Source of the DNA: Candidatus Poribacteria bacterium | GTDB lineage: Bacteria; Poribacteria; WGA-4E; WGA-3G | Reading direction: 5' to 3' | DNA length: 32,520 bases | Assembly: GCA_009839975.1 (NCBI GenBank) | Contig: VXOP01000287.1 | Location: forward strand, 1 to 32,520 | In this document: positions 4,038 to 32,520 of the stretch, in pieces | Numbering within the stretch: position 1 is the first letter of the stretch | Layout of the letters: each line of letters opens with the position of its first letter | Position numbers and translations under genes: made by a program | Notes under the pieces: generated by a model | What the model saw: only the letters and a program-made list of their open reading frames with translations | Told to the model about the DNA's origin: nothing | Databases searched by the model: none

Positions 4038-6782
4038 ATGAAAAACAACGATACACGATTAATTCGTCTGACGCTTGAAGGTGATGATACTGCCTTTGCG
4101 GAGCTTGTAGAAAAATATCAGAAACAGGTTCACGCGCTGGTGTGGCGAAAAATCGGTGATTTCCATATCGCTGAAGAAATTACGCAAGACACATTCCTGA
4201 AAGCGTATAACAATCTCGCTACACTGAAACAGTCACAGAGTTTCGCAAGTTGGCTTTATGTTATTGCCACAAGTCGTTGTAACTCATGGTTGCATAAAAA
4301 GTATCGACAGACAGCGTTAATACGGGATATAGATACCCTACATCCCCAGAAAACCACCTATTCTGAGCATGTGCTTGAAGAAAACGAACGGATCGCTGAA
4401 AAAGCACAACGCGAAGTCGTTAAGAAACTACTGGCGAAGCTTGGCGAAAGCGAACGCACTGTCATGACATTACATTACTTCGGAGAGATGTCGTGTTCAG
4501 AGATAGGTAAGTTTATGGGTGTATCTACCAATACAATAAAAAGCAGACTCCGTCGCGCACAACAACGTCTGCAGAAGGAGGAAACGATGATAAGAGAAGC
4601 ATTAGACAATTTCCAGATCACACCACATCTTACTGAGAATGTCATGCGTGAGATTTCGCGTATCAAACCTGTAACACCGTCAAGTAGTAAACCATTGGTG
4701 CCATTAGCAATATCTTCTGCCTCAGCCATTTTAGTTGTTTTACTGATAGGTTTTGGTGCACAGAATTTACTCAGGTTTCAAAAGCCGTATAGTTTAGAGT
4801 CAATATCAGAGCGAACGATTGAAATCGTTAAGGCACCAGTAGTTCTAAATCATCAATCAAAACCCCAATGGCAAAAACGGATTGGTGGCACTAAGAGTAG
4901 CAAAGACATAAACGACGGTCTAACAGAAGGAACAGAAAAAGTGGAAAACAACTTAACACAAGATGCTATGCAATGGAATTTGCCTGAAGATGCTAAAGCA
5001 CGTCTCGGTAAAGGTAGGATAAATGATATACAGTATTCTCCAGATGGAACAATACTTGCAGTGGCGAGTGATATTGGTATTTGGTTCTACGATTCAGATA
5101 CACATCAAGAGATCGCACTCCTTACAGATCATGAGGGTGAAGTTACCGATATCACCTTCAGTCCTGAAGGTCGCTATTTTGCAAGTAGGAGCAAACATAA
5201 TAGCGAAGAAGGGAAAATACTGCTGTGGGATAGGACATCGGGGACGCAAACAACACTTGCAGTGGATACAAGTGTGTTCCTAAACATCGGTCTGAGATTT
5301 AGTCCAGATGGGAAGACACTTGCCTGTGGAATCGGAGATACTGTTACACTTTGGGATTCCGTCATCGGAGAGCAGAAGTCTACACTCACTAACGAGACAA
5401 TAGAAAATAACATTTATTTGTCTTTTTCTACGGATGGAGAAACAATCGTTTGTGTTAATGGGGAAGGAACTGTCAGTCTGTGGGACCTGATCACTGCTAA
5501 ACATAAGCAGACAATTTCAGGACAGAAAATGATTACGTTGAGTGCAGCGTTGAGTCCGGATGGAAAAACAATTGCTACGGGTTGTGAGAATGGTGCTGTC
5601 TACCTGCACGATTTAAACACAAGTGAACTTAAGTCTACACTCTCCGGACATACGTGGGATGTTGACAATTTAGTGTTCAGTCCGGATGGAGAAATCCTCG
5701 CCAGTGCTTCGTATGTTGATAACACATTTTGCTTATGGGATGTGGATACCGGTGAGCGCAAGCGAACACTCACAGGACACACGTGGGATATTCGCGGCAT
5801 AGCGTTCAGTCCAGATGGAAAAACAATTGTCAGTGGTGGTGCTGATGATAGCATTCGTTTTTGGGATGTACATACAGGTAACCAGAAACATATCATCACT
5901 GGACATACGGATTTTGTTGCAAGCGTGGCGTTCAGTCCAGATGGAAAATTAATCGCAGTTGGCTATGAGGGACGCAATATTCGCTTCTCGGATGTAAACA
6001 CAGGCCAACCAGTCAAAACATTTGATGGATTCGAGGATTGGATTCCAAGCATAGTATTTACAAGAGATGGAAAAACACTTGTGTGTGGAAGCGGAGAAAA
6101 CGTTCACATACTGGATTCACAGACTGGTGAACACAAAATGGTACTCACTCGACAAACGAGCAGTAAACAAAGGAGCGGTATTCATAGTGTCGCACTCAGT
6201 CCGGATGAGAAAACAATCGCCAGTGGTAGTGAAGACAAAACTATCTGTCTATGGGATATGTTCACCGGTAAACAGGAAAAAATACTCATAGGACATACAC
6301 ACAGAGTCTATAGTGTAGCATTTAGTCCAGACAGAAAGACCCTCGCAAGTGGCAGTGATGACAATACTGTACGATTATGGCGTGTTGACACTGGCGAGAC
6401 TCAGATAATACTTGCCGGACATACACATGAATTTGAAGGAGTCAAGAGCGTAGCTTTCAGTCCAGATGGGAAAACTCTCGCAAGTGGCGGTGGTGATAAC
6501 ATCATCCACCTATGGGATATAGATACAGGGGAAATTAACATGACGCTTATTGGCCATACACATTGGGTGTTCAGTCTGGCGTTCAGTCCAGATGGTAAAA
6601 CCCTCGCAAGTGGGAGCGTAGACAGCGACATTCGTCTATGGGATCCGCATACTGGTAAGCATAAGAAAACATTAACGGGACATACAGGTTGGGTAAGAAG
6701 TATCGCTTTTAGTCCAGATGGCAAAACACTCGTTAGCGGTAGTGACGATGGTACTGTACTCATCTGGGAGATTGATCCTTAA
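4038..6782 (+). CDS. Membrane-anchored ECF sigma factor fused to a 14-repeat WD40 domain
   Basis: 914 residues; ATG preceded by GGAGGT (4027-4032). Sigma-70 region 2 spans about 19-92 and region 4 about 131-182, whose HTH includes MSCSEIGKFMGVSTNTIKSRLRR. A single hydrophobic helix follows at 221-242, then a hydrophilic linker with NLTQDAMQWNLPEDAKARLG (305-324). Residues 327-914 hold 14 WD40 repeats of the type FSPDGKTLASGSDD...LWD..TG...L.GH, enough for two seven-bladed propellers. The sigma domain must be cytoplasmic, so one helix would put the propellers outside the cytoplasm as a possible sensor. No separate anti-sigma gene is present. Sigma-WD40 fusions are known from planctomycete ECF groups. 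Signal and regulon are unknown; it is the full-length member of this three-gene array. Confidence 0.9.
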   Translation: MKNNDTRLIRLTLEGDDTAFAELVEKYQKQVHALVWRKIGDFHIAEEITQDTFLKAYNNLATLKQSQSFASWLYVIATSRCNSWLHKKYRQTALIRDIDTLHPQKTTYSEHVLEENERIAEKAQREVVKKLLAKLGESERTVMTLHYFGEMSCSEIGKFMGVSTNTIKSRLRRAQQRLQKEETMIREALDNFQITPHLTENVMREISRIKPVTPSSSKPLVPLAISSASAILVVLLIGFGAQNLLRFQKPYSLESISERTIEIVKAPVVLNHQSKPQWQKRIGGTKSSKDINDGLTEGTEKVENNLTQDAMQWNLPEDAKARLGKGRINDIQYSPDGTILAVASDIGIWFYDSDTHQEIALLTDHEGEVTDITFSPEGRYFASRSKHNSEEGKILLWDRTSGTQTTLAVDTSVFLNIGLRFSPDGKTLACGIGDTVTLWDSVIGEQKSTLTNETIENNIYLSFSTDGETIVCVNGEGTVSLWDLITAKHKQTISGQKMITLSAALSPDGKTIATGCENGAVYLHDLNTSELKSTLSGHTWDVDNLVFSPDGEILASASYVDNTFCLWDVDTGERKRTLTGHTWDIRGIAFSPDGKTIVSGGADDSIRFWDVHTGNQKHIITGHTDFVASVAFSPDGKLIAVGYEGRNIRFSDVNTGQPVKTFDGFEDWIPSIVFTRDGKTLVCGSGENVHILDSQTGEHKMVLTRQTSSKQRSGIHSVALSPDEKTIASGSEDKTICLWDMFTGKQEKILIGHTHRVYSVAFSPDRKTLASGSDDNTVRLWRVDTGETQIILAGHTHEFEGVKSVAFSPDGKTLASGGGDNIIHLWDIDTGEINMTLIGHTHWVFSLAFSPDGKTLASGSVDSDIRLWDPHTGKHKKTLTGHTGWVRSIAFSPDGKTLVSGSDDGTVLIWEIDP

Positions 6783-7030
6783 TGTTTCCAATGCATAACA
6801 CCTGCGTTGGTAATATTACAGTTCTTTGTTTGTGTCTTATACTGAAATCCATAATTATTTGCATACAATTGTAGCGCAAACTTTTAGTGTGCGGACACTA
6901 CTGCACAAATTAAATGAAGATTAAATGATTAATCAGGTAATTATGATTTCTCCAGGGCGGTAGGTGCGATAAGGAAATCGCACCTACCGAATAATGTTCT
7001 ATTCACAAAAAGGCAGGTTTTTTTGAATTA
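6783..7030. other. Gene-free spacer between the first two sigma-WD40 genes
   Basis: The gap between the genes is 324 bases. I see no ORF, RNA gene or U-tailed hairpin in its first 115 bases. It then carries one copy of a dispersed repeat (6901-6990) and the candidate promoter at 7044-7073. Confidence 0.7.
6901..6990. repeat. Dispersed repeat with GTGCGATAAGGAAATCGCAC hairpin, copy A
   Basis: The hairpin GGTGCGAT-AAGGA-AATCGCACC lies at 6963-6984. The 60 bases before it (ATGAAGATTAA, AATCAGGTAAT and others) also match the sequence before the hairpin at 31311-31390. The repeated unit is therefore longer than the hairpin. It is non-coding and has no U-tail. Confidence 0.65.
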
Positions 7031-7043
7031 TGACATTCCTGCA

Positions 7044-7073
7044 ACCCGTTCTCAGTGGAATCGCGTCACCTAT
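7044..7073 (+). promoter_or_regulatory. Candidate ECF-type promoter of the second sigma-WD40 gene
   Basis: ACCCGTTC (7044-7051), 13 bases, then GTCACCTAT (7065-7073), 33 bases before the ATG at 7107. Element sequence and gap match those upstream of the first paralogue while the surrounding bases differ, which argues for a retained functional site. Inference from two occurrences only. Confidence 0.45.
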
Positions 7074-7106
7074 TTGTATACCTAAATAGATTATGAGAGG
7101 ACTGTG

Positions 7107-9617
7107 ATGGAAAAAGATGATGTTGAACTAATTCAGAGTACACTTTCTGGTGATGAGGATGCCTTCAGCGATCTGTTCAGGAAATATGAAAAACGTATTC
7201 ATGCTTTTGTATGGCGAAAAATAGGAGATTTCCATTTCGCTGAAGAAATCACACAAGATGCTTTTCTTCAGGCTCATAATAAACTTACTTCGCTGGAAAA
7301 TCCGAACCAGTTTATAGGATGGCTCTATGTTATCGCAGACCGACTTTGCACAGCATGGTTACGAAAAAAGAAAATGACGATACAATCGCTGGAAACCACC
7401 AGTGAAGAGGCACTGGAAAAAACCGCTTATGCCAATTATATTGCAGAACAACGTGAAGCAACATCTGCTGAGTCTCGTCGTGACATAGTAGATAGTCTAC
7501 TGGAAATGCTACCGGAGCGTGAACGCACGGTGATAATCCTCTACTACCTTGGAGAAATGAGCTGTGAAGCGATAGGAAAGTTTCTAAGTGTGTCTCCGAA
7601 CACTGTCAAAAGTCGACTTCAACGGGGGCGGAATCGTTTACGGATTACCGTTGACATCGAAACATTACCTGATTATTTATACCAAGTTAGAAGCAGTATT
7701 ATTGCATCTGAAAACAAAAACCAAAGTTTACCAAAAGGAAACAAGACAATGGAAAGAAACTTAACCCAAGAAGTTATGCAATGGAACTTACCTGAAGATG
7801 CTAAAGCACGTCTCGGTAAAGGTAGGATATACGAATTCCAGTATTCTCCCGATGGTGCTATACTTGCTGTGGCGAGTAGTATCGGTATTTGGTTATACGA
7901 CACATCAACATATCAAGAGATAAGTCTTCTCACAGAACATACGAGTGTAGTCGACTGCCTTGCGTTTAGTCTGGATAGACGCACTTTTGCGAGTGGAAGC
8001 AAAGACGGCACCATTCTGCTATGGGGGTATAAGCCTTCCGATGGTAGTGTGAGTGTGCAAACAAAGCTCACCGTGGATAGAAGGGTACTCTCAGGCCTGA
8101 ACCTGGCATTCAGTCCTGATGGGAAGACACTTGCAAGTGGAACTGGTGATACTATCCAGTTTTGGGATACCATCACAGGAGAACAGAAGTCAGAACTCAC
8201 TTCTTTCAATACTTTCTTATCCTTTAGTCCGGACGGAACGACAATAATTGTTTGTGAGGATCGGAAGGGTACAATCAGTCTGTGGAATCCAATAACCGGT
8301 AAACCCGATAAAACGATACCAGGACATATAGATCGTATACATAGTGTTGCGTTGAGTCCGAATGGTAAAACAATCGCTATGGGTAGCGAAAATGGTCCTA
8401 TTCATCTCTACGACTTAGACACAATCGAAAACAAAATAACACTCTCCGGACATGAGCGGCAAGTTCAGAGTCTTGTATTCAGTTCGGACGGTAAAATGCT
8501 TGTGAGTGGAAGTTTGGATCAAACAGTACGACTGTGGGATGTCAACACAGGTGAACACAAGCAAACAATGACGGGTCACACAGATTGGGTCCAAAGTGTT
8601 GCGCTGAGTCCGAATGGAAAAACAATCGCAAGTGGAGGCGGCGATGATACTATCCGATTCTGGGATATAGACACAGGTACTCCGATAAATATAGTCACTG
8701 GACATACGCCTTGGATCGGTGCTATCGCATTCAGTCCCCATAATAAAGAGACAATCACAATTGAAAATGGTGATGGTACTATCCTATTCTGGCATGCAGA
8801 CACAGGACAACACATCAAAACCCTCAATGAGTTTAGGGATGCGGTGTCAAGTGGTGCAGTACGAAATATAGAGTTCTCTCCAGATGGAAATATACTCGCT
8901 TGGGGCGATGACGGCATGCGTCTATGGGATGAGGACACAAACGAGTACAAAATGATACTCAAGATAAGCGAGTGGGGTACCCACAGTGTGGCACTCAGCC
9001 CCGACGGAAATATAATCGCTATTGCGTTCGACAAGGGCAATCTTATCAAATTGTGTATGCCCGCAAGTGAACAAGAGCTGACACTCACTGGACATACGGA
9101 GGGCATTTTCGGCTTGGCATTTAGTCCTGACAGTAAAACCCTCGCGAGTACAAGTGATGATGACACTATCCGCCTCTGGGATGCACAAACAGGAAAGATC
9201 ACAGAGGTATTTGCTTTAGATAGTACTTGGAGAAGAGACGTTGTAGATTGGTGGAAAGCTAGTGCTTGGTGGGGACTTGCATTCAGTCCGGATGGTAAGA
9301 CCCTCGCTGTTGGTGGTGGTGAAATTATCCTCTTATGGGATATAGATACTGGTAATACCATGATGAGGCTCATCATGCCTTCGCATCGGGTGTTTGATTT
9401 AGCATTCAGTCCGGATGGTAAAACCCTCGCAAGCGGGGGTTTTGAGAGTAACATCAACTTATGGGACCCACACACCGGCAAGCACAAGAAAACATTGACA
9501 GGACACACAGATTGGGTTAGTGCCATCGTGTTCAGTCCGGATGGTAAATCTCTCGGCAGTAGAGGTGACGATGGCACTGTCCTCATCTGGAAGGTAAATC
9601 CTTATGTACACGAGTAA
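7107..9617 (+). CDS. ECF sigma factor fused to a 14-repeat WD40 domain, without membrane helix
   Basis: 836 residues from ATG 7107, with GAGAGG at 7095-7100 six bases upstream; a GTG at 7104 is less well placed. Sigma region 2 is at about 16-90 and region 4 at about 131-182 (MSCEAIGKFLSVSPNTVKSR). Unlike the first paralogue there is no hydrophobic helix: about 30 residues after region 4 it enters ERNLTQEVMQWNLPEDAKAR and then 14 WD40 repeats (about 240-836). Both parts should be cytoplasmic. Several blades are degenerate, for example the eleventh, which has a Trp-rich insertion (WRRDVVDWWKASAWW). Its last 14 bases overlap the next gene. The missing membrane segment heads that next protein, suggesting this gene arose when a WD40 module was inserted into a sigma-TM-WD40 gene. 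Confidence 0.88.
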   Translation: MEKDDVELIQSTLSGDEDAFSDLFRKYEKRIHAFVWRKIGDFHFAEEITQDAFLQAHNKLTSLENPNQFIGWLYVIADRLCTAWLRKKKMTIQSLETTSEEALEKTAYANYIAEQREATSAESRRDIVDSLLEMLPERERTVIILYYLGEMSCEAIGKFLSVSPNTVKSRLQRGRNRLRITVDIETLPDYLYQVRSSIIASENKNQSLPKGNKTMERNLTQEVMQWNLPEDAKARLGKGRIYEFQYSPDGAILAVASSIGIWLYDTSTYQEISLLTEHTSVVDCLAFSLDRRTFASGSKDGTILLWGYKPSDGSVSVQTKLTVDRRVLSGLNLAFSPDGKTLASGTGDTIQFWDTITGEQKSELTSFNTFLSFSPDGTTIIVCEDRKGTISLWNPITGKPDKTIPGHIDRIHSVALSPNGKTIAMGSENGPIHLYDLDTIENKITLSGHERQVQSLVFSSDGKMLVSGSLDQTVRLWDVNTGEHKQTMTGHTDWVQSVALSPNGKTIASGGGDDTIRFWDIDTGTPINIVTGHTPWIGAIAFSPHNKETITIENGDGTILFWHADTGQHIKTLNEFRDAVSSGAVRNIEFSPDGNILAWGDDGMRLWDEDTNEYKMILKISEWGTHSVALSPDGNIIAIAFDKGNLIKLCMPASEQELTLTGHTEGIFGLAFSPDSKTLASTSDDDTIRLWDAQTGKITEVFALDSTWRRDVVDWWKASAWWGLAFSPDGKTLAVGGGEIILLWDIDTGNTMMRLIMPSHRVFDLAFSPDGKTLASGGFESNINLWDPHTGKHKKTLTGHTDWVSAIVFSPDGKSLGSRGDDGTVLIWKVNPYVHE

Positions 9618-11676
9618 ACCCTTGCTACCTTTTGCAGCTTTAGGTGCATCTGCTATTTTGGTTATCTTGCTGATGGGTGCAAACAAGCAATTCACCGCTA
9701 ATTTTCAGATACCATATAGTGTTGATGCACGATCAGAACCTACGATTGAAATCGTCAATGCACCAGTCATTCAAAATCATCAATCAAAACCCCAATTGCA
9801 AAACCGAATTGGTGGCAATAAAAGAAGCAAAGACAGTAACGACGGTCTAACAGAAGGAACAGAAAAAGTGGAATACAACTTAACACAAGATGCAATGCAA
9901 TGGAATCTGCCTGAAGATGCTAAAGCACGTATCGGTAAGGGTAGCATAAATGAGATACAGTATTCTCCTGATGGTAAATTTCTCGCTGTTGCGAGTGGTA
10001 TCGGCATTTGGTTATACGACACAACAACACATCAAGAAGTCGCCTTGCTTACAGAACATGTGAAACAAGTTGACAGTTTGGCATTTAGTGCTGATGGACA
10101 CATCTTGGCGAGTGGAAGTGCCGATGCCATTATTCTGTGGGACAGAAGTACCGGTGCACAAACAAGACTCACCGGACATACACATTGGATTTCAAGCCTG
10201 GCATTCAGTCCGGATGGAAAAACACTCGCGAGTGATAGCAGGGACGGTACTATCCGATTATGGGATGTCATCACAGGAGATCAGAAATATTCGCTCAAGA
10301 AAGATTCGGATGGTGCCACTGTGTTATCATTCACACCAGACGGACAGACGCTTGTAAGCGTGAGTTGGTGGGACAGCAAAATTAGTTTATTGAACCCGAT
10401 CACAGGTGAACACAAGAAAACACTCGCTATGCATCCCGATTGCTTTCCTACAGGCACGGAGTTCAGTCCGGATGGGAAAATAGTTGCGATTGGCAGTGAA
10501 GGTGGCACGATCTATCTCCACGACTTAAACACAGGTGAACTCAAGATGGAACTCATCGGACATAGGGAGCATGTTGATAACTTAGCCTTTAGTCCAGAGG
10601 GAAAAACAATTGCGACTTCATCACATATAGACGAAACAATTCGTCTGTGGAATATTCACACGGGTGAACACAAGCTAACACTCAATGCACATACGCGGTA
10701 TGTTCGAGGTTTAGCATTCAGTCCTGATGGAAAAACACTTGTGAGTGGAAGTGGCGATGGCACTATCCGATTCTGGGATGCACGCACAGGTGACGAAAAG
10801 TATAAAATCACTGGATATTCGGAATATGTCTATAGTGTAACATTCAATCACGATGGTGACATCATTGCCAGTGGATCTACCAATGGAATTATTAGTTTGT
10901 GGGATGTAGAGACAAAACAACATATCAGAACGCTCAATGGGTCAAAAAATGGGTTTAAGGATCCCGCTGACAGTCTGGTGTTCAGTCCTGATGGAAATAT
11001 ACTCGCTTGTGGACACGATGGCATCAAACTTTGGGATGTAGATACTGGTGAACACAAGAAAACACTTGTTGGACATACGGATACTGTTGAATCTGTAGCA
11101 TTCAGTCCGGATGGGAAGATCCTTGCAAGTGGTAGTTCCGACACGACTATCCGCCTCTGGGATGCACACACTGGCAAACACAAGCAAACACTTATTGGAC
11201 ATACAAATGGGGTTAGCAGTGTCTCGTTCAGTCCAGATGGAGTTATCCTCGGGAGTGGCAGTGCCGATGGATCCGTACGTCTTTGGGACGTTGGTAGTGG
11301 AAAAATTAAAATGACATTTATCGGGCACAAAGGATGGGTCGAAAGTATCTCGTTTAGTCCAAACGGAAAAATCATCGCAAGCGCAGACGATGACGAGGTA
11401 ATTCATCTATGGGAAATAGACACAGGTAAAACCGAGTTTACGATTGTTGGACATAGAGACTGGGTATACAGTTTAGCGTTCAGTCCGGATGGAAAAACAA
11501 TTGCATTTGGTTGTCTTGACGCCACGATCCACTTATGGGATATAAAGACAGGTGAACACAAGCAAACGTTGACTGGTCATACATTTCGGGTCAAAAGTTT
11601 AGCGTTTAGTCCTGATGGGAAAACCCTCGTGAGCGGCGGTGATGATGGGTCTGTGCTTCTCTGGGAGATAGAATAG
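9604..11676 (+). CDS. Membrane-anchored 14-repeat WD40 protein lacking the sigma domain
   Basis: 690 residues; ATG 9604 lies 14 bases inside the preceding gene in another frame, with GGAAGG (9589-9594) nine bases upstream, so coupled translation is likely. The first residues (YTSKPLLPF, then a helix at about 8-26 ending ILVILLMG) align with residues 216-240 of the first paralogue. The linker shares TIEIV, NHQSKPQ and LTEGTEKVE with it. Residues about 112-690 form 14 WD40 repeats. The N-terminal helix could be an anchor or an uncleaved signal, exporting the propellers. It amounts to a sigma-TM-WD40 protein minus its sigma domain. It may act as a partner or decoy sensor for the sigma-WD40 proteins; this is unproven. 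Confidence 0.87.
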   Translation: MYTSKPLLPFAALGASAILVILLMGANKQFTANFQIPYSVDARSEPTIEIVNAPVIQNHQSKPQLQNRIGGNKRSKDSNDGLTEGTEKVEYNLTQDAMQWNLPEDAKARIGKGSINEIQYSPDGKFLAVASGIGIWLYDTTTHQEVALLTEHVKQVDSLAFSADGHILASGSADAIILWDRSTGAQTRLTGHTHWISSLAFSPDGKTLASDSRDGTIRLWDVITGDQKYSLKKDSDGATVLSFTPDGQTLVSVSWWDSKISLLNPITGEHKKTLAMHPDCFPTGTEFSPDGKIVAIGSEGGTIYLHDLNTGELKMELIGHREHVDNLAFSPEGKTIATSSHIDETIRLWNIHTGEHKLTLNAHTRYVRGLAFSPDGKTLVSGSGDGTIRFWDARTGDEKYKITGYSEYVYSVTFNHDGDIIASGSTNGIISLWDVETKQHIRTLNGSKNGFKDPADSLVFSPDGNILACGHDGIKLWDVDTGEHKKTLVGHTDTVESVAFSPDGKILASGSSDTTIRLWDAHTGKHKQTLIGHTNGVSSVSFSPDGVILGSGSADGSVRLWDVGSGKIKMTFIGHKGWVESISFSPNGKIIASADDDEVIHLWEIDTGKTEFTIVGHRDWVYSLAFSPDGKTIAFGCLDATIHLWDIKTGEHKQTLTGHTFRVKSLAFSPDGKTLVSGGDDGSVLLWEIE

Positions 11677-15967: not shown

Positions 15968-16945
15968 TCATTTAGCACCATTTTGAATTGTTTGAACCGA
16001 ACGTATGAAATCTTCTAAGTGTTCAACATCTAATGCTTCCTGGAAAAGCTGTTTTACTTGTTGTAAATCGCCAATAGTCTCAAGCAAGGGTATTAAAACA
16101 GGTGTAGTATTCATTTCAAATCGTTTGTCAAGTAGAACCACTATGGCTTCAATTATTCCTTCTTTTACCCCTTGTTGTATTCCCTGCTCCATACCGCGTT
16201 CCATACCGCGTTCCATACCGCGTTCAATTATCATTTCATAAACTGATGAATTATTCACAATATCCTCCGATAGTGTTTCTATTAAGTTTTGACGTTCATG
16301 TCTCAAACCACTCATAACCCACAACTCAACAAGCAGATTATTTCGTGTTGGTGTGTCAACAGGTAATGCCTTCGTTACCTCTACACAGTGTGTTGTCCAA
16401 TTGATGCCTGACATTCCCTTACGGGGTCTCATCAATGGAGTAAACGGCATCAGACCTGGCTGCTGTGTCTGAAGAATCTCCTCACCGTCAATCTCGTTTA
16501 ACCGAATTACTTGGTACTCAACAATTAGTCTATGACCGGGTATGTCTTGGAAATACCCTCCAGGGTCTCTTGCTCCAGCAGTTGATCTTAAATAAAGCAC
16601 GTATGAATAGATTGGCAATCCATATTTTTCATAGCATCTGCCGATATAACCAACATTCCGCTGCACCATATTCGGATTTACGCTATCGTCTGTCTGGATT
16701 TCGCAATGTATTAAAACGGGTTTTTCATCAATCAGAACCTTTACCAAAATGTCCATCTGTCGCACATCAACATTGGTTAAGTTGGTGTCAACATGGTCAA
16801 TAAACTCAAAATCCTTGTTACCCATCAGAAATTGGATCATAGTTTCTGGATAGGTATAAAATGGGTCTTTTGCTACAATATCAAAACGTTGATGCGGTAA
16901 AATAATTGTGTCAGTTTGAGTTTGTGTGTTCTCTTGTTCTTTCAA
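15968..16945 (-). CDS. Rpn-family PD-(D/E)XK nuclease / transposase-like protein
   Basis: 325 residues from a TTG start, 7 bases after the sucC stop. The N-terminal half fits the Rpn/YhgA-like family: DPFYTYPETMIQFL, then the PD-(D/E)XK core with D65 (RQMDILVKVL) and E82-x-Q84 (LIHCEIQTDDS). In that family these residues cut DNA and promote RecA-independent recombination. After about residue 230 comes a low-complexity heptad-like tail, ERGMERGMERGMEQG, encoded partly by a three-fold 12-base tandem repeat. No partner gene is seen. Its place between sucC and pgk looks like insertion of a mobile or selfish gene into a housekeeping run, expressed by read-through. Confidence 0.8.
   Translation of the reverse strand: MKEQENTQTQTDTIILPHQRFDIVAKDPFYTYPETMIQFLMGNKDFEFIDHVDTNLTNVDVRQMDILVKVLIDEKPVLIHCEIQTDDSVNPNMVQRNVGYIGRCYEKYGLPIYSYVLYLRSTAGARDPGGYFQDIPGHRLIVEYQVIRLNEIDGEEILQTQQPGLMPFTPLMRPRKGMSGINWTTHCVEVTKALPVDTPTRNNLLVELWVMSGLRHERQNLIETLSEDIVNNSSVYEMIIERGMERGMERGMEQGIQQGVKEGIIEAIVVLLDKRFEMNTTPVLIPLLETIGDLQQVKQLFQEALDVEHLEDFIRSVQTIQNGAK
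16189..16224. repeat. Three in-frame 12-bp tandem repeats in the Rpn-like gene
   Basis: CCATACCGCGTT occurs three times without interruption, encoding R-G-M-E units on the minus strand. Copy-number change would lengthen or shorten the protein by four residues without a frameshift. Confidence 0.85.
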
Positions 16946-16952
16946 TATTCTT

Positions 16953-18137
16953 CTAAATGTTATTTACTGCGTTTACAGCGAGTTCTGCTGCTTCAGATAG
17001 TCCTTCAGCCAATTGTAAGTTCAAGTCCGATTCAGCGATAATCTGTTTTCCTAATTCTACATTTGTCCCCTCTAATCGAACCACGAGAGGAACATTGAGT
17101 TTGACCTGTTTTGCTGCATCAACGATACCGGTTGCTATTGTGTCACATTTCATGATGCCACCGAAGATATTAACAAGAACTGCTTTTACGTTTTCATCTG
17201 CAAGGATAAGTCTAAAGGCGTGTGCGACTGCCTCTACGGATGCCCCTCCGCCAACATCAAGAAAGTTCGCTGGTTCACCACCCTTCTGTTTGATAATATC
17301 CATCGTTGCCATAGCTAATCCTGCACCGTTGACCATACAACCGATGTTTCCATCAAGACGGATGTAACTAAGACCGGACTCACTCGCTTCTAATTCGCTT
17401 GGGTCTTCTTCGTGTGGATCACGCATATCAGCAATCTTTGCGTGTCGCCACAGCGAGTTGTCATCAAGATTGACTTTAGAGTCAAGAGCAACGATTTCTA
17501 AGTCATCATCCTCACCGACAATTGCCAACGGATTAATTTCAATTAACGAACAATCACATCCGATAAATGCGTTGTAAAGCGAAATGATCAACGCAGTGGT
17601 ATTCGGTATAAGGTGTCGGTAAGTTAGATCAGTAATCAGTCTGTATGCAAATTCGCGTGCTTGGAAATCGGTTAACCCGAAAGCAGGATTAATCTGTGTT
17701 CGGATAATCTTTTCAGGTGTACGTGCAGCGACTTCCTCAATATCCATACCCCCTTCTTCGCTTCCGATTAGGGTGAGTTGAGATGTCTCTCTATCAAGCA
17801 ATAATGCAAGATAATACTCCTCTTGTATCTCAGCAGCCTCAACGATGAGGATTTTTCTGACCTGTTTTCCTTCGGGTCCGGTTTGAGGTGTCACGAGTTG
17901 CATGCCAATCATATCTGCAGCGAGTTGTTTAACTTTTTCTATTGAATTCGCGAGCTTTACACCGCCGCCCTTTCCGCGACCTCCAGCATGTATCTGTGCT
18001 TTGATAACGTACTTATCACTATCAATGGCTTTCGCAATTGCTTCTGCTTCTTCAGGTGTTTCGGCAACCTTGCCGGGAAGTGTGCTAACACCAAAGGATT
18101 CTAATATTTCTTTAGCTTGGTATTCATGTATATTCAT
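16953..18137 (-). CDS. sucC: Succinate-CoA ligase, ADP/GDP-forming, beta subunit
   Basis: 394 residues from ATG 18137, where MNIHEYQAKEIL is the canonical start. The frame is open to 18206, but those 23 residues do not look like the family. ATP-grasp fold with AGGRGKGGGVKLA near residue 45, the metal-binding NPLAIVGEDDDLEIVALDSK region, and the CoA-ligase part NIGCMVNGAGLAMATMD, FLDVGGGAS and VNIFGGIMKCD. It makes succinate plus ATP or GTP from succinyl-CoA in the TCA cycle. The alpha subunit gene sucD, normally adjacent, is not here; an Rpn-like gene follows instead. Weak ribosome site. Confidence 0.93.
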   Translation of the reverse strand: MNIHEYQAKEILESFGVSTLPGKVAETPEEAEAIAKAIDSDKYVIKAQIHAGGRGKGGGVKLANSIEKVKQLAADMIGMQLVTPQTGPEGKQVRKILIVEAAEIQEEYYLALLLDRETSQLTLIGSEEGGMDIEEVAARTPEKIIRTQINPAFGLTDFQAREFAYRLITDLTYRHLIPNTTALIISLYNAFIGCDCSLIEINPLAIVGEDDDLEIVALDSKVNLDDNSLWRHAKIADMRDPHEEDPSELEASESGLSYIRLDGNIGCMVNGAGLAMATMDIIKQKGGEPANFLDVGGGASVEAVAHAFRLILADENVKAVLVNIFGGIMKCDTIATGIVDAAKQVKLNVPLVVRLEGTNVELGKQIIAESDLNLQLAEGLSEAAELAVNAVNNI

Positions 18138-18265
18138 CTTTAATGTTGTGAGTGCAAGTCCTTTTATAGGTATAATAACTTCAGGTAGAATATCAACATA
18201 AGACAAGAAAATGTGTTACAGATTATACTATACTTGATTCGTAATTGCAAGTATTTGATGATGAC

Positions 18266-18489
18266 TTACGTTAGAACAGATGAGGGTAGTTCCTGTATCA
18301 CAGGGATTACATAACTTCGTATTTTAAAGCCTTCCAACGTCTCAGTTTCTACAAGGGTTTCTGCTGTTTTACGATGATTAAACACCACATAGTATCCTTC
18401 TACTCAACAAAATCCGAGAGTTCTTCTGTTCGCGCGACAACGTAGTTATCTTCAGGATTAACGGGTCCGCGTGTTTCAAACCATCGCAT
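18266..18489 (-). pseudogene. Internally deleted remnant of the AAA/PD-(D/E)XK family
   Basis: Read on the minus strand, an AGGAGGAT ribosome site (18496-18503) precedes ATG 18489. About 29 codons (RGPVNPEDNYVVARTEEL) match the first 29 residues of the full-length protein at 27670-29292 (RGRVYPDRHYIVKRTEEI). A TAG at 18400-18402 follows. Two bases on and in another frame comes GYYVVFNHR, then VETETLEGFKIRSYVIPVIQ up to TAA 18266-18268, matching that protein's last 45 or so residues. Roughly 460 central residues, including Walker A and the nuclease core, are gone. Start and stop regions survive with a single deletion junction at about 18398-18403. This explains the otherwise gene-free 18207-18544. 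Confidence 0.85.
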
Positions 18490-18544
18490 CTCAATATCCT
18501 CCTTTAGTCGTTGAAGGAATTATATCAGTTTACAGTGTGGAAAT

Positions 18545-19072
18545 CTATAAGAAAAGGTGTGTAAAAGAGGTAGGACTAAAAGATAAACCTTCTGCTTTTT
18601 CAACAGACCTATCATCTTCAAGATGGGCAAGCAGTGTCTGGATAGTTTCATTAAAGATAGGATGCACAAGGTCAGGTGCAATTTCTGCTAACGGCACAAG
18701 CACGAAACGACGCAGGTGCATCTCTGGATGAGGGATAGTCAGATGCGGGGTTTCCACACATAGATCGTCATAGATCAAAATATCCATGTCGATTTCTCTC
18801 GGTCCCCAACGGATACGGTGTTCTCTGCCAACGTTAATCTCAATTTGCTTTAGCGTATACAGCAAAGTATGAGGAGAATGAGAGGTTCTGATTGAGACAA
18901 CACCGTTTAGGAAATCATCTTGTGCTTCATTTCCGACAGGGGCAGTTTCGTATAGGGAGGAAATCTTTTGTAATGTGATCCCTTCTATTTTCGATAGAGC
19001 AGTGATTGCACTTTGGGTATACGAAAACTTATCACCAATGTTGCTGCCGAAGCCGATGTATGCTAAATGCAC
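18545..19072 (-). CDS. folK: 2-amino-4-hydroxy-6-hydroxymethyldihydropteridine pyrophosphokinase (HPPK)
   Basis: 175 residues, normal for monofunctional FolK. Transfers pyrophosphate from ATP to 6-hydroxymethyl-7,8-dihydropterin in folate synthesis. [10 protein letters not shown] at the N-terminus, [18 protein letters not shown], the [18 protein letters not shown] signature with the two catalytic Asp, and [21 protein letters not shown] are intact. It starts 26 bases after fabF and is probably the last gene of the fatty-acid run. Folate synthase neighbours (folP, folB) are absent. Confidence 0.95.
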
Positions 19073-20337: not shown

Positions 20338-20420
20338 GAGACCGATCCTTTTCTAAAGTAAGTGAAGAGGGCTTGCAGTTTAGGCTACATGCCCTCAACG
20401 GTTTTTAGGAATGTGAGAAT

Positions 20421-20654
20421 TTATACATGCTCATCAAGGTAATCAAGAGCATCTTGAACCGTTTGGATCTTCTCAGCATCACTGTCAGGAATTTCAAGAT
20501 CAAATTCTTCCTCAAGTGCCATGACCAATTCTACGGTATCAAGTGAATCCGCCCCTAAGTCTTCCATAAATGAAGCATCGGGTGTTACGTTATCTGCGTC
20601 AATACCGAGTTGATGTGAGATGATTTCTATAAGTCGTTCTTCATTTGTAGCCAT
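20421..20654 (-). CDS. acpP: Acyl carrier protein
   Basis: 77 residues, acidic. S37 in the [12 protein letters not shown] motif is the site of the 4'-phosphopantetheine arm. It carries growing acyl chains between the Fab enzymes. A clear AGGAGAT lies 9 bases before the ATG. It is separated from fabG by 187 bases that hold two inverted repeats, so it may have extra regulation or its own promoter. Confidence 0.97.
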
Positions 20655-20677
20655 ATCTTTTTTATCTCCTATGATAC

Positions 20678-20821
20678 GAGCGGATAATCAGAGTTCTAAG
20701 ACGTTTGATGCTGTCCGCTCCTGCATTAAAAAATCAAGGTTAATCAGTAGAGCAAATATATAATTCAACCTACGTCCTAAGGCAAATAGGTTAGCATAAA
20801 AATCAATTTACTACCTATTTG
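20678..20821. promoter_or_regulatory. Two inverted repeats in the fabG-acpP gap
   Basis: CAAATAGGT (20783-20791) and ACCTATTTG (20813-20821) form a 9-bp perfect stem with a 21-base loop just after fabG. GAGCGGA (20678-20684) and TCCGCTC (20714-20720) form a second dyad in the acpP leader. Neither has a U-tract. They could be an operator, an mRNA-stabilising hairpin or a processing site; nothing more can be read from the sequence. Confidence 0.35.
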
Positions 20822-20841
20822 TAGAAATATGATATCTGAAG

Positions 20842-23626: not shown

Positions 23627-23722
23627 GCTAAGTATCCTTTTTGAGCCGATTATGACAGATCAATACTATAGAATTAGTTTCTAAGAAGATCAATCAACGA
23701 AAATATTAATGTGGGTAATTAC

Positions 23723-23908
23723 CTACAACTGTTCTGTTTCTTTGCGAACTGAATGCCCCTTATAGTGTCCACAGTGCGTACAGACTCGATGCGACACCAT
23801 CATTTCTCCACAATATGAGCAATCTGTAATGTCTCGGCTTCGAAGGGCATGATGACTTCTTCGCATCCTTTTTTTTGATTTTGATGTTTTACGTTTTGGA
23901 TGTGCCAT
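23723..23908 (-). CDS. rpmF: 50S ribosomal protein L32
   Basis: 61 residues, very basic. N-terminal MAHPKRKTSKSKKRMRRSH is the L32 signature. CSYCGEMMVSHRVCTHCG is the zinc-ribbon (C+) form, so its function depends on zinc. Its first 20 bases overlap the end of the DUF177 gene, the usual tight yceD-rpmF pairing. Confidence 0.97.
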   Translation of the reverse strand: MAHPKRKTSKSKKRMRRSHHALRSRDITDCSYCGEMMVSHRVCTHCGHYKGHSVRKETEQL

Positions 23909-25929: not shown

Positions 25930-26003
25930 TCGGGGCGACTGGATTCGAACCAGCGACCTCTTGAACCCCATTCAAGCGCGCTTCCGGGCTGCGCCACGCC
26001 CCG
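25930..26003 (-). tRNA. tRNA-Pro, anticodon GGG
   Basis: On the minus strand the acceptor stem is CGGGGCG (26003-25997) with CGCCCCG (25937-25931), discriminator A at 25930, and no encoded CCA. The anticodon arm is CTTGA-ATGGGGT-TCAAG, with GGG in the loop. The T arm carries GGTTCGAATCC. A C1-G72 first pair is usual for bacterial tRNA-Pro. Length 74 with a short variable loop. Confidence 0.95.
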
Positions 26004-26027
26004 CTATTAAGTTTGAGTTACCCTATA

Positions 26028-26056
26028 ATAGTATCATAAAATGACAGAAAAGTCAA
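26028..26056 (-). promoter_or_regulatory. Sigma-70-type promoter for tRNA-Pro and hom
   Basis: On the minus strand, TTGACT (26056-26051), a 17-base spacer and TACTAT (26033-26028) place transcription start near 26021, about 18 bases before the tRNA. Close to consensus in sequence and spacing. Confidence 0.6.
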
Positions 26057-26221
26057 ACGAAATTGTATTTTGGGTATTCTGAATAACTTCTTTTGAAATG
26101 TAATTCTTCAAAAAGAGTTTTTAGCACAACTCGTTAAATACCACCTCTAAAATCTCCGTATCTCTGTTATTCTACTATACGTTTCATATATTAGGTGATT
26201 TCTATAATGAAGGTGAACTCT

Positions 26222-26344
26222 ATGACAATACAGATAGCAATAATCGCTTGTGGTGGTGTGGTAATTGCTTTTCTTAGTGCTTATCTCACAATATATAATA
26301 CAGAAGTGTATCAAAAACCGATCAATGGACGCTGGGGGATATAA
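26222..26344 (+). CDS. Small single-pass membrane protein coupled to the MFS gene
   Basis: 40 codons from ATG 26222, with AAGGTG (26210-26215) six bases upstream; an in-frame ATG at 26207 gives 45. Residues about 3-24 (IQIAIIACGGVVIAFLSAYL) form one hydrophobic helix, followed by a polar tail ending NGRWGI. Its TAA (26342-26344) is immediately followed by the TTG start of the transporter, so translation should be coupled. Length and layout suggest a small transporter-associated membrane peptide. I recognise no family. Confidence 0.5.
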   Translation: MTIQIAIIACGGVVIAFLSAYLTIYNTEVYQKPINGRWGI

Positions 26345-27640: not shown

Positions 27641-27675
27641 CTCTATTGAAAAGCACAAAAACAGTAGCTCTATTG
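27622..27675. repeat. 27-bp tandem duplication across two convergent gene ends
   Basis: The unit at 27622-27648 (AAAAGCACAAAAACAGTAGC onward) is exactly repeated at 27649-27675. The first copy contains the MFS stop codon (27638-27640), and the second contains the stop of the oppositely oriented AAA gene (27670-27672). Identity of the copies points to a recent slippage event. Confidence 0.9.
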
Positions 27676-29292
27676 ATCAAAAGCAGAGATGGATGAAGGT
27701 TTTCTTTGAACGACAGGGATTAGGTAGGATCGAATGGTTACACCCTCAAGCATTTCCGTTTCAACACGCGATTCTGGATTCGTGCGGTGATTGAAAACAA
27801 CATAGTACCCCTTATCAACTTTTTCAGATTTGAGATACGCTACCAGCTGCTTCTTTCCTGCTTGATGATACCTTTCTCCTTCCCAAATTTTGGTCTCTAC
27901 AATATACTTACGGGAGTTATAGAGAATCATTAAGTCAATCCTGCCTCGACCCGTTTGAACTTCAAGGAACATACTTGCATTTATAGTTCTGATAAAGTGA
28001 TCTAAATATGCATAGAGTAGGTTCTGTCCAACATACTCTTGAGGTGTTTCCGGAACTTGTAATATCCGAAAACCTACGCGAGAAATGAAATCTTTAAAGT
28101 TGTTGAGTAGACTCTCAAGTTCAATTCCACCCGAAGGTGTAACATAGTCAATGAAATCTACCTCGGTATCTTCAGCAAAATAGTCATTCTCTAAACCGTT
28201 TATTGCTGGTTTAAATGCTTGTAAAATGCGATGTTGATATATCGGATTGACAATCTGACACATTCTGTCAGGACCTCTCTTGATGACACCATACATGGTG
28301 AGTTCATTTATTATGTCATCATCAAGATTATATGGAACGCCTCTTTCATAAGAAGCAATTTTCATCAGGAATCTTCCAAAACGACGGTCTCTACGAATAT
28401 TTGTCAGAAGGTGTTCAATATTGGTATTTCTTTCCTCAAGCAGTTGTGTATGTGCTTCTGCAAAGTGCGACATTTCAATTGTATCGGTTTTAGGAATGTT
28501 TAATTCATTTGTCATTATCTGTGCTGCGCGGTTAACAAGGAAAGGTTGTCCTGCTGTCTGTTTATGTAATGAGATGATAACTTCTTGGTCAAAAGGTTGC
28601 CCGACTTCATCTGTGTATTGCGAAAGCAGTTCCTGTACCTGTTCCAATGTGAAGTTTGGTAGGTTGAATTCATCTTGAATGTTAAACGGGGAGATTGAAC
28701 GATCATAGTTGAGCTGCGTGATGCTCTTGACACCAACAATACCGACACTATGGATACATCTTGGTTCATCAGATAGGTAGACACGACGTAGTGTATGTAG
28801 GAAATCGCTCAAGACGGTTTGAGGTATACCATCAAATTCGTCAATTATAATAACGATCTTTGGTCTGATTCCTCGCTGGATTGAAAGAAAGTCTGTGAGG
28901 GCTCCAAAAAATTCACTCATTGAAATATGATCAACGATTGATTGATCTTCAAGGAATTGTACTGTTTCCTCACATGAACCTTCTGCCCGACTTTGAATAA
29001 CTTTCTCAATCTCCTTACATGTATCTCTGTAGAAAGCGTTATAAAAGTCCGAAGATGGTAGATTATTATACGGCTCAAAATTCAGTTGAATTGGAAAAAA
29101 GGATTCATCCTGATTCGTGAGTTCTTCGGTAGTAAACCGAAAAAAGGTAGTCTTTCCTGTTTGGCGCGGCGCAAACAGAACGATGTATCTACCCTCTTTG
29201 ATACGGTTAATGAAATCTCTGATTTCTTCTGTGCGCTTTACAATATAGTGTCTATCGGGGTATACACGACCTCTTGTTCCAAAACTTCTCAT
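27670..29292 (-). CDS. AAA-like ATPase with C-terminal PD-(D/E)XK nuclease domain
   Basis: 540 residues; AGGTGG precedes the ATG. Walker A APRQTGKTT is at 41-49 and Walker B IVIIIDEFD near 145-153, in an AAA-like (AAA_35 type) ATPase domain followed by a winged-helix-like region. The C-terminal third carries a PD-(D/E)XK core: GRIDLMILY, then IVETKIWEGE with the E-x-K pair, and KGYYVVFNHR. These multi-copy bacterial genes have no settled function; defence, mobile-element or housekeeping ATPase-nuclease roles have been proposed for relatives. A second, internally deleted copy lies at 18266-18489. It is a lone gene, converging on the MFS gene. Confidence 0.85.
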   Translation of the reverse strand: MRSFGTRGRVYPDRHYIVKRTEEIRDFINRIKEGRYIVLFAPRQTGKTTFFRFTTEELTNQDESFFPIQLNFEPYNNLPSSDFYNAFYRDTCKEIEKVIQSRAEGSCEETVQFLEDQSIVDHISMSEFFGALTDFLSIQRGIRPKIVIIIDEFDGIPQTVLSDFLHTLRRVYLSDEPRCIHSVGIVGVKSITQLNYDRSISPFNIQDEFNLPNFTLEQVQELLSQYTDEVGQPFDQEVIISLHKQTAGQPFLVNRAAQIMTNELNIPKTDTIEMSHFAEAHTQLLEERNTNIEHLLTNIRRDRRFGRFLMKIASYERGVPYNLDDDIINELTMYGVIKRGPDRMCQIVNPIYQHRILQAFKPAINGLENDYFAEDTEVDFIDYVTPSGGIELESLLNNFKDFISRVGFRILQVPETPQEYVGQNLLYAYLDHFIRTINASMFLEVQTGRGRIDLMILYNSRKYIVETKIWEGERYHQAGKKQLVAYLKSEKVDKGYYVVFNHRTNPESRVETEMLEGVTIRSYLIPVVQRKPSSISAFDQ

Positions 29293-31636: not shown

Positions 31637-31690
31637 CTACTTCAGCGTTGGTGTTGTGAACATCAACGCACCTCTCGCAAAGGGAAGTAG
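31637..31690 (+). promoter_or_regulatory. Structured 5' leader upstream of tnpB
   Basis: Outer stem CTACTTC (31637-31643) with GAAGTAG (31684-31690). Nested hairpin GCGTTGGTGTT (31645-31655), loop GTG, AACATCAACGC (31659-31669), with one G-T pair. A 14-base single strand (ACCTCTCGCAAAGG) follows the inner hairpin. The structure ends 22 bases before the tnpB ATG. Possible roles are mRNA stability, translational control or a recognised RNA; function unknown. Confidence 0.55.
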
Positions 31691-31712
31691 AAACTATTCA
31701 GGAAATAGTATC

Positions 31713-32520
31713 ATGAAAAGAACACACAAGATTGCCTTAAATCCGAACAACAAGCAACGTAAGTGGTTTGCTCAGCAGGTTGGATACGCACGTTGGTCAT
31801 ATAATCAAGCATTAGCAGACTTTAAAAAGCATTATGATGCTACAGGTGAATATCTATCTGTTGGCAAGTTAGATAAAAGGTTTAACGTCTACAAGAAAGA
31901 ACATGCTTGGACTGCTGATATGGATCAAGTTGTTTGTTCACAAAGTATCTATAAACATTTAGGTGCAGCGATAACGAACTGGATAGAGAAACGTGCAAGA
32001 TTTCCAGTCTTTAAAAAGAAAGGAAGAAAAGATTCTTTTTCTTCTAAGAATGGATCAGCAGAAGTAAGAGGAAAGTGGCTTAGACTGCCCAAGATTGGTT
32101 GGGTCCGCATGTTTGAAAAACTTCGTTTTGAAGGTAAGATTAGTAGTTGGACTATATCAAGGACGGCACACCGATGGCTTGTATCAATCACTGTTGAAAC
32201 AGAGAACACTATAGCAGTTGATAAGACTTCAACGCACCCTGTTATTGGCATTGATGTGGGTATAAATACATTAGCAACCTGTTCGGATGGCAGTAAATAC
32301 GATAATCCAAGACCCTTGAAGCGTCATGAGAAGAAACTGGCAAAGTTTATGCGTGTGCTAAGCAGGCGTGTCAAAGGTTCTAAGAACTGGCATAAGCAGA
32401 AGGATAAAGTAGCACGCTTGCATTATCGGATAGCATGTATCCGTGAAGATGCACACCATAAAGCAACTACGGATATAGTCAACCGTTGTTCTGGTATAGG
32501 TATTGAAACACTGAAAGTAA
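31713..32520 (+). CDS. tnpB: TnpB-family RNA-guided nuclease, truncated by the window end
   Basis: 269 codons from ATG 31713 run open to the window edge. The N-terminus MKRTHKIALNPNNKQRKWFA with ARWSYNQAL is the usual TnpB start. RuvC-I catalytic D181 lies in IGIDVGINTLAT and RuvC-II E265 in GIETLKV. The zinc-finger and RuvC-III parts would lie beyond 32520. TnpB of IS200/IS605 elements is the ancestor of Cas12 and cuts DNA guided by an RNA from the element's right end. There is no disabling mutation in the visible part. GGAAATA lies before the ATG. Confidence 0.88.
   Translation, partial: MKRTHKIALNPNNKQRKWFAQQVGYARWSYNQALADFKKHYDATGEYLSVGKLDKRFNVYKKEHAWTADMDQVVCSQSIYKHLGAAITNWIEKRARFPVFKKKGRKDSFSSKNGSAEVRGKWLRLPKIGWVRMFEKLRFEGKISSWTISRTAHRWLVSITVETENTIAVDKTSTHPVIGIDVGINTLATCSDGSKYDNPRPLKRHEKKLAKFMRVLSRRVKGSKNWHKQKDKVARLHYRIACIREDAHHKATTDIVNRCSGIGIETLKV

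Follow-up and report, generated by a model that had tools for sequence, protein, structure and literature searches.

Between two genes that we take, following the earlier note, to be folK and sucC, a genome of Candidatus Poribacteria carries a short stretch that begins like a gene of an AAA/PD-(D/E)XK family and ends like one, with most of the gene missing between the two parts. The locus raises the question of how this remnant arose and of what it says about the family from which it comes. The window analyzed here is a 32,520-nucleotide stretch of contig VXOP01000287.1, and the features discussed are collected in Table 1. Read on the minus strand, the remnant has the sequence AGGAGG, 8 nt, an ATG, and then 29 codons (MRWFETRGPVNPEDNYVVARTEELSDFVE) that end in a stop at the junction. 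Past the junction, in another frame, come the ~45 C-terminal codons of a gene of that family (EGYYVVFNHRKTAETLVETETLEGFKIRSYVIPVIQELPSSVLT, again with a stop). The coding frame is destroyed by the junction stop and the frame shift, both here and in a second genome of the genus (G004). Translation of the minus strand thus bears out the earlier description of a ribosome site and 29 N-terminal codons fused to about 45 C-terminal codons in a shifted frame.

Table 1. Features of the folK-sucC gap and of the intact family member in the window (G004 and G013, genomes of the same genus)
Feature	Position	Strand	Basis
Relic: start codon, 29 N-terminal codons, junction, and last ~45 codons of the folK-linked AAA/PD-(D/E)XK gene	18266..18489	-	Break points shared with G004; orthologue intact in G013
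N-terminal piece (MRWFETRGPV..DFVE), the 86 nt before the junction	18404..18489	-	78/86 nt identical to the intact G013 copy
C-terminal piece (GYYVVFNHR..SSVLT and stop), 133 nt	18266..18398	-	119/133 nt identical to the intact G013 copy
Deletion junction, 5 nt left versus 1380 nt in G013	18399..18403	-	Ends share at most 1 nt, read against G013
folK (name assumed), upstream neighbor marking the conserved position	18545..19072	-	Synteny
sucC (name assumed), downstream neighbor	16953..18146	-	Synteny
Sigma-70-like site TTGCAA-17-TATAAT between relic and sucC	18222..18250	-	Consensus matches 10/12; whole scan at chance level
P0001, intact member (AAA_35 + PD-(D/E)XK), 540 aa, in a clade other than that of the relic	27670..29292	-	Profile matches, tree, model
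P0001 segment, CDS nt 220-499	28794..29073	-	G004 orthologue has ~60% identical DNA there

Both pieces can be assigned to one family. P0001, the intact member in the window, matched the C-terminal piece at an E value of 4.6e-11 (67% over residues 494 to 535; whole-genome search) and the N-terminal piece at 6e-5 (small database), and the N-terminal piece in G004 was matched at 9e-15 by a folK-type N-terminal query. Compared with the protein encoded by an intact, syntenic copy in a third genome (G013), the pieces are 93% (residues 1 to 29) and 91% (residues 488 to 530) identical. At this identity the likeness is due neither to chance nor to low complexity, and the two retained parts are the two ends of one family member, as the earlier note had held.

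folK was located in 17 of the 18 genomes of the genus, this genome (G000) included. An intact family copy lies directly after it in 10 of the 16 others (G001, G005, G006, G007, G008, G012, G013, G015, G016, and G017), in two of which (G001 and G017) a tandem pair of copies lies there, and within the stretches fetched, the folK-linked copy is followed by sucC in G013, G006, G015, and G016. G004, a separately assembled MAG, has the same relic after folK, with the same break points. A tblastn search with N- and C-terminal peptides found no family trace in the 5.3 to 5.7 kb after folK in G002, G010, G011, and G014 (best E value, 0.09), and G009, whose contig ends ~90 bp past folK, was left out of the judgment of presence or absence. 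None of the folK-sucC gaps compared (G004, G006, G013, G015, and G016) was an empty site. The undeleted copy that the earlier note had proposed to look for in the syntenic gap of relatives is present in G013, where both gene ends and both flanks are collinear with those of the relic. Because this intact copy of 1599 bp occupies the same gap, the relic can be said to have lost ~1375 bp; relative to the G013 gene, 1375 bp (458 codons, not a multiple of three) are missing, in agreement with the ~460 codons estimated before.

G000 and G004 have identical break points and differ at one base within the five junction bases. The G013 gene reads GATTTTGTTGA up to the 5' break, continuing with CCGG, and AAAGCA up to the 3' break, continuing with GTAAAAGG. 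Read with G013 as the reference, which is not the true ancestor, the ends have at most 1 base in common, which suggests that the deletion occurred by illegitimate (non-homologous) recombination. The other deletions in the family that keep both gene ends have junctions different from this one. Identity at fourfold sites is 86.9% between G000 and G004 (2400 sites, 17 genes) and 75.4% between G000 and G013 (2198 sites, with three of the 17 genes contributing none), which makes G013 the outgroup, and the deletion postdates the divergence from G013. A single internal deletion of ~1.37 kb that took place in the ancestor shared by G000 and G004, once G013 had split off, would account for the locus. 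Taken alone, the relic is an ordinary pseudogene. The full reading, which we hold with high confidence, is that one internal deletion made this pseudogene and that its parent family probably combines an ATP-driven sensor with a nuclease, diversifies by blocks, and loses copies by deletions.

Once formed, the scar would have diverged about as fast as its surroundings. Between G000 and G004, the relic is 95.5% identical and its flanks are 96.6% and 98.2% identical, so that its divergence is close to theirs, inside one of the better conserved gaps. The gaps at 18147-18544, 20338-20841, and 23627-23888 have identities of 0.957 to 0.966, compared with 0.869 at fourfold sites; other gaps are lower (0.80 to 0.93 in several of them), among them a further long one (25972-26344, 88.6%) and the shorter gaps with at least 25 aligned bases (84 to 93%). 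Since the folK-sucC gap diverges less than fourfold sites and several other gaps, some constraint is possible, and the remnant might have been kept for a function, whether by encoding a short leader peptide, by giving rise to a small RNA, or by belonging to the control region of sucC. The retention of the start codon, the ribosome site, and the 29-codon frame in both G000 and G004 means that a short product could still be made, and a TTGCAA-TATAAT site lies in the flank. This promoter-like site is, however, also found at the intact G013 locus, and the scan that detected it performed at chance level; the C-terminal piece stands in a shifted frame, conservation is just as high in two other long gaps (0.966 and 0.957), and the relic does not exceed its flanks. 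We therefore consider a retained function very improbable.

The position of the relic within the family was examined with its two peptides and with a tree. Among 99 full copies, the syntenic G013 copy scored best against the relic peptides and P0001 ranked 69th; seven of the eight top scorers were folK-linked copies. In a tree of 97 copies, built by a quick method with SH-aLRT support only, all 11 folK-linked copies fell into one clade of 15 rows (SH-aLRT, 100), together with two tandem partners, the contig-end copy of G009, and one G002 copy, and P0001 and six orthologues formed a separate clade (SH-aLRT, 100). The folK label requires 4 changes on this tree, at least 3 of them by the starred branches. 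The copy at 27670-29292 is thus clearly diverged, as the earlier note had stated. Its further proposal of an older family member lost in place holds for the loss in place, given the intact syntenic copy in G013, and is not supported for the relative age, as the relic and P0001 appear on the tree as parallel lineages.

Because their clades differ, the relic is not a duplicate of P0001. A recent copy of P0001 in truncated form or a small MITE-like mobile derivative that had landed between folK and sucC could explain why both gene ends are kept, as they are in internally deleted transposon derivatives, and several other broken family copies likewise keep both ends. Yet in G013, G006, G015, and G016 a full gene stands at the same site, with sucC next to it; with the flanks also collinear, we regard such an insertion as highly improbable. 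An assembly artefact, in which two gene ends of a multicopy family were wrongly joined in this fragmented MAG of 454 contigs, has a negligible probability, since the separate G004 assembly has the same break points and its own substitutions on both sides.

Three further regions of the window were observed in passing. Adjoining sucC, positions 15968-16945 encode a 325-aa protein, presumably Rpn/PDDEXK-like, for which the G004 match is limited to 98 residues (60%) and the stretch of G013 compared has none; this near-absence suggests another variable nuclease-like gene nearby. At 4038-11676, three adjacent genes, which we assume to encode WD40-repeat proteins, two with a sigma-factor-like N terminus, contain stretches that cross-match one another's G004 counterparts. 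An open frame at 31656-32519 that we take to be TnpB/IS605 OrfB-like runs past the contig end.

The family to which the relic belonged is widespread in this lineage. A whole-genome search with P0001 returned 10 family matches in G000, the 18 genomes of the genus have 3 to 16 each, and many copies are broken, which agrees with the earlier suggestion of a many-copy family that turns over. Among 84 genomes of the phylum searched at an E value of 1e-30, all 58 genomes of the window's Poribacteria family have 3 to 18 matches, and 5 of the 26 genomes in the rest of the phylum have 1 or 2; these counts include partial matches and are minimum values in many genomes, for which 17 candidates were scored. 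In a named genome collection, all 74 loci found with patterns from P0001, which reach close relatives only, were titled Poribacteria.

P0001 matched AAA_35 (PF14516) with 58.8 bits (cut-off, 27), and all 40 aligned members matched this model at an E value of 0.01 or better. The P0001 scores against PF08011 (PDDEXK_9; 20.2, cut-off 25.5) and PF09820 (AAA-ATPase_like; 17.4, cut-off 26.1) were below the cut-offs, and at an E value of 0.01 these two models were matched by 33 and 12 of the 40 members, respectively. Searches of NCBIfam returned nothing above its cut-offs, PADLOC gave weak matches only (best E value, 0.0011), and a PDB sequence search gave nothing below an E value of 0.06. Catalytic positions are nearly invariant: all 162 distinct open-frame copies keep G46, K47, T48, D151, E152, E444, E466, and K468, with D453 kept in 160 and Q482 in 161, so that each element of the PD-(D/E)XK active site (acid E444, D453, ExK E466/K468, and Q482) is present in 160 to 162 of the 162 copies. 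Six copies (G003:C109, G008:C79, G010:C56, G011:C137, G016:C145, and G017:C1:5056194) lie in open frames of 836 to 838 aa, a sign that a longer form, extended by ~300 residues, may exist in the family.

The full-length model of P0001 is moderate (pLDDT, 74.3; pTM, 0.60). The best Foldseek match of its AAA part is an archaeal ATPase_2 structure, 2qen (E value, 2.3e-7), and the same part aligned with the ORC chain 8s0c_E over 138 residues (Z, 10.9; 2.9 A). Modelled alone, the C-terminal domain reached a pLDDT of 84.7; its sole Foldseek match below an E value of 0.001 was chain G of the E. coli McrBC complex (E value, 1.3e-4), which by its length we take to be McrC, and it aligned with BamHI over 131 residues (Z, 8.8; 4.0 A), with BstYI also among its structure matches. 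These models point to a probable ATPase-coupled restriction-type nuclease, whose activity we infer. The parent of the relic would then have had an AAA+ module of the ORC/Cdc6 type, including a winged helix, followed by a PD-(D/E)XK domain, and may have acted as a sensor that is driven by ATP and linked to a nuclease of the restriction type.

Exchange of segments and loss of the nuclease domain also seem to contribute to the turnover of the family. Over the first 1611 nt, P0001 shows 137 differences from its G004 orthologue; 112 of these fall within nt 220 to 499, and the rest is ~98% identical. The replaced block of the G004 orthologue (280 nt, L149:12617-12896) lies between Walker A and Walker B and has nearly identical DNA on either side. 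Through most of this block, G013 is 83 to 92% like G000 but 52 to 75% like G004, indicating that it was G004 that changed. No donor of the G004 block was found, the best full-length match elsewhere in the genus being 69%.

Close pairs among the 162 copies were scanned at third codon positions, and a pair was called mosaic at thresholds chosen after the first pairs (third-position identity of at most 0.55 in the block and at least 0.80 outside, with an LLR of >20). Identity was at least 0.62 in 213 pairs, in 70 of these the sequence outside the best block reached at least 0.80, and 31 of those 70 pairs were mosaic. The largest LLR over 620 shuffles was 12.8, and none of 39 control pairs, from 13 other genes of G000, G004, and G013 (a genome set that differs from that of the family pairs), had a mosaic block (largest LLR, 10.2). 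The 31 pairs form 19 connected groups and are therefore not independent. The block covers the Walker A-B segment in 13 pairs (starts at residues 4 to 82, ends at 149 to 224) and surrounds the winged helix and linker in 7 (starts at 252 to 326, ends at 349 to 460), these two positions accounting for 20 of the 31; eight pairs, all of one group, have a long block from 258-285 to 497-533, two blocks straddle both parts, and one is short (25 to 54).

The clearest donor candidates come from a chromosome-level record, OY282383, in which block 46 to 182 of copy L100:3001 is 94% and 93% identical to two L082 copies, with 76% and 74% outside it, at a distance of ~1.5 Mb. Weaker donor cases have 81 to 86% identity inside versus 67 to 74% outside, two of them within one genome (L082:1245 with L098, and L114 with L143), and for many family members no donor of comparable identity was found. 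Copies would thus diversify through block replacement, and deletions like that of the relic would remove or disarm them.

Twenty places with partial matches were fetched and classed. Six hold frameshifted copies (L254, L259, L260, L265, L266, and L270), five hold C-terminal remnants (L256, L257, L258, L268, and L269; a contig end is ~100 nt away from L257), and one (L271) is cut by a contig end. Five others are deletions that keep both ends (L252, L253, L263, L267, and L255), and three copies (L261, L262, and L264) stop past the winged helix, where no C-terminal scrap was seen; L180 in G017 resembles these three. In P0001 numbering, L252 and L253 join residue 362 to 487; in L267 and L255, each read against its closest full copy, the joined residues are 362 and 514 and 386 and 471, respectively. 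In G000 itself, L007 (contig C232), as read by eye, appears to be fused at residue ~360 to the ~10 C-terminal residues of the family. The nine ATPase-only frames examined are 360 to 373 aa long.

Derivatives without the nuclease that end just past the winged helix, at residue ~360 to 366 (L129, L133, L134, and L135; L252, L253, and L263; and L007), have more than one origin and are still open frames with low pairwise dN/dS, a ratio obtained here from simple pairwise counts that do not allow for block exchange. L252, L253, and L263 have a common junction, and their divergence (pairwise omega, 0.15 to 0.22) therefore postdates the loss of the nuclease. At one locus, with neighbors that we take to be RraA-like and MFS-like, 7 of 11 genomes have the full gene and 4 (G008, G011, G012, and G017) have the ATPase alone; over 362 residues, the gene of G012 and the full one of G006 are 92.5% identical (omega, 0.10). 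A C-terminal scrap is kept in G012 and was not seen in the other three, so that the nuclease was probably lost at least twice at this locus. Across the family, deletions have removed the nuclease domain on several occasions, and the resulting ATPase-only genes have low dN/dS.

Known systems resemble parts of this arrangement. The AAA_35 model covers residues 15 to 353 of P0001, that is, the ATPase part only, so that the fused nuclease and the mosaic structure lie outside it. The archaeal ATPase_2 and ORC-Cdc6 proteins (2qen and 2qby) have the AAA core with helical and winged-helix parts; however, the matched entries name no PD-(D/E)XK domain, and identity is 8 to 18% among the matches listed. 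McrBC, which consists of two proteins, McrB and McrC, the former from a different AAA+ branch, is matched by the structure of the C-terminal domain and offers ATPase-gated restriction-type cutting as a working analogy.

The closest precedent appears to be the DUF1703 family (PF09820 plus PF08011), described as AAA+ plus PD-(D/E)XK with a Walker A of the RPRRFGKS type (PMC1913061). DUF1703 and the Poribacteria family are alike in having an N-terminal AAA+ and a C-terminal PD-(D/E)XK domain, with a motif-I acid, a D, ExK, and a motif-IV Q. They differ in that P0001 scores below both Pfam cut-offs and above that of AAA_35 and has the Walker A APRQTGKT; on these grounds, we file the family as a DUF1703-related variant. 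The account of Cardinium cCpun reports 25 DUF1703 paralogs with intragenic recombination, secretion signals in 10 of the 25, and six AAA-only genes, with all partial genes near scaffold borders (PMC6387759). This expansion is the closest to what we see, a large paralogous expansion in an animal symbiont with intragenic recombination and some AAA-only genes. In contrast to the Cardinium partial genes, which may on this account be truncation artefacts, the AAA-only genes of Poribacteria lie inside contigs and have low dN/dS, and the positions of their exchanged blocks in the family are mapped here. We met no earlier description of the Poribacteria family under Poribacteria or DUF1703/PDDEXK_9 topics, in sources available mostly as titles and abstract openings, which is not proof of absence.

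The relic is thus a dated event in a family with 3 to 18 matches, at least, in many genomes, in each of 58 genomes of one Poribacteria family, and the host is a sponge-dwelling bacterium. Beyond the relic, the family offers a mapped exchange of blocks, most often at two places, together with repeated loss of the nuclease while the ATPase is retained. We speculate, as a rather unlikely idea, that this might be a self-diversifying recognition system, in which two exchangeable ATPase segments would set sensing, the nuclease would be the effector, the nuclease-less ATPases, which evolved repeatedly, would serve as blockers or immunity subunits holding the armed copies in check, and relics would be retired specificities. 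As recombination is also reported for the similar Cardinium family, the pattern may be general in the expanded AAA/PD-(D/E)XK nucleases of animal symbionts.
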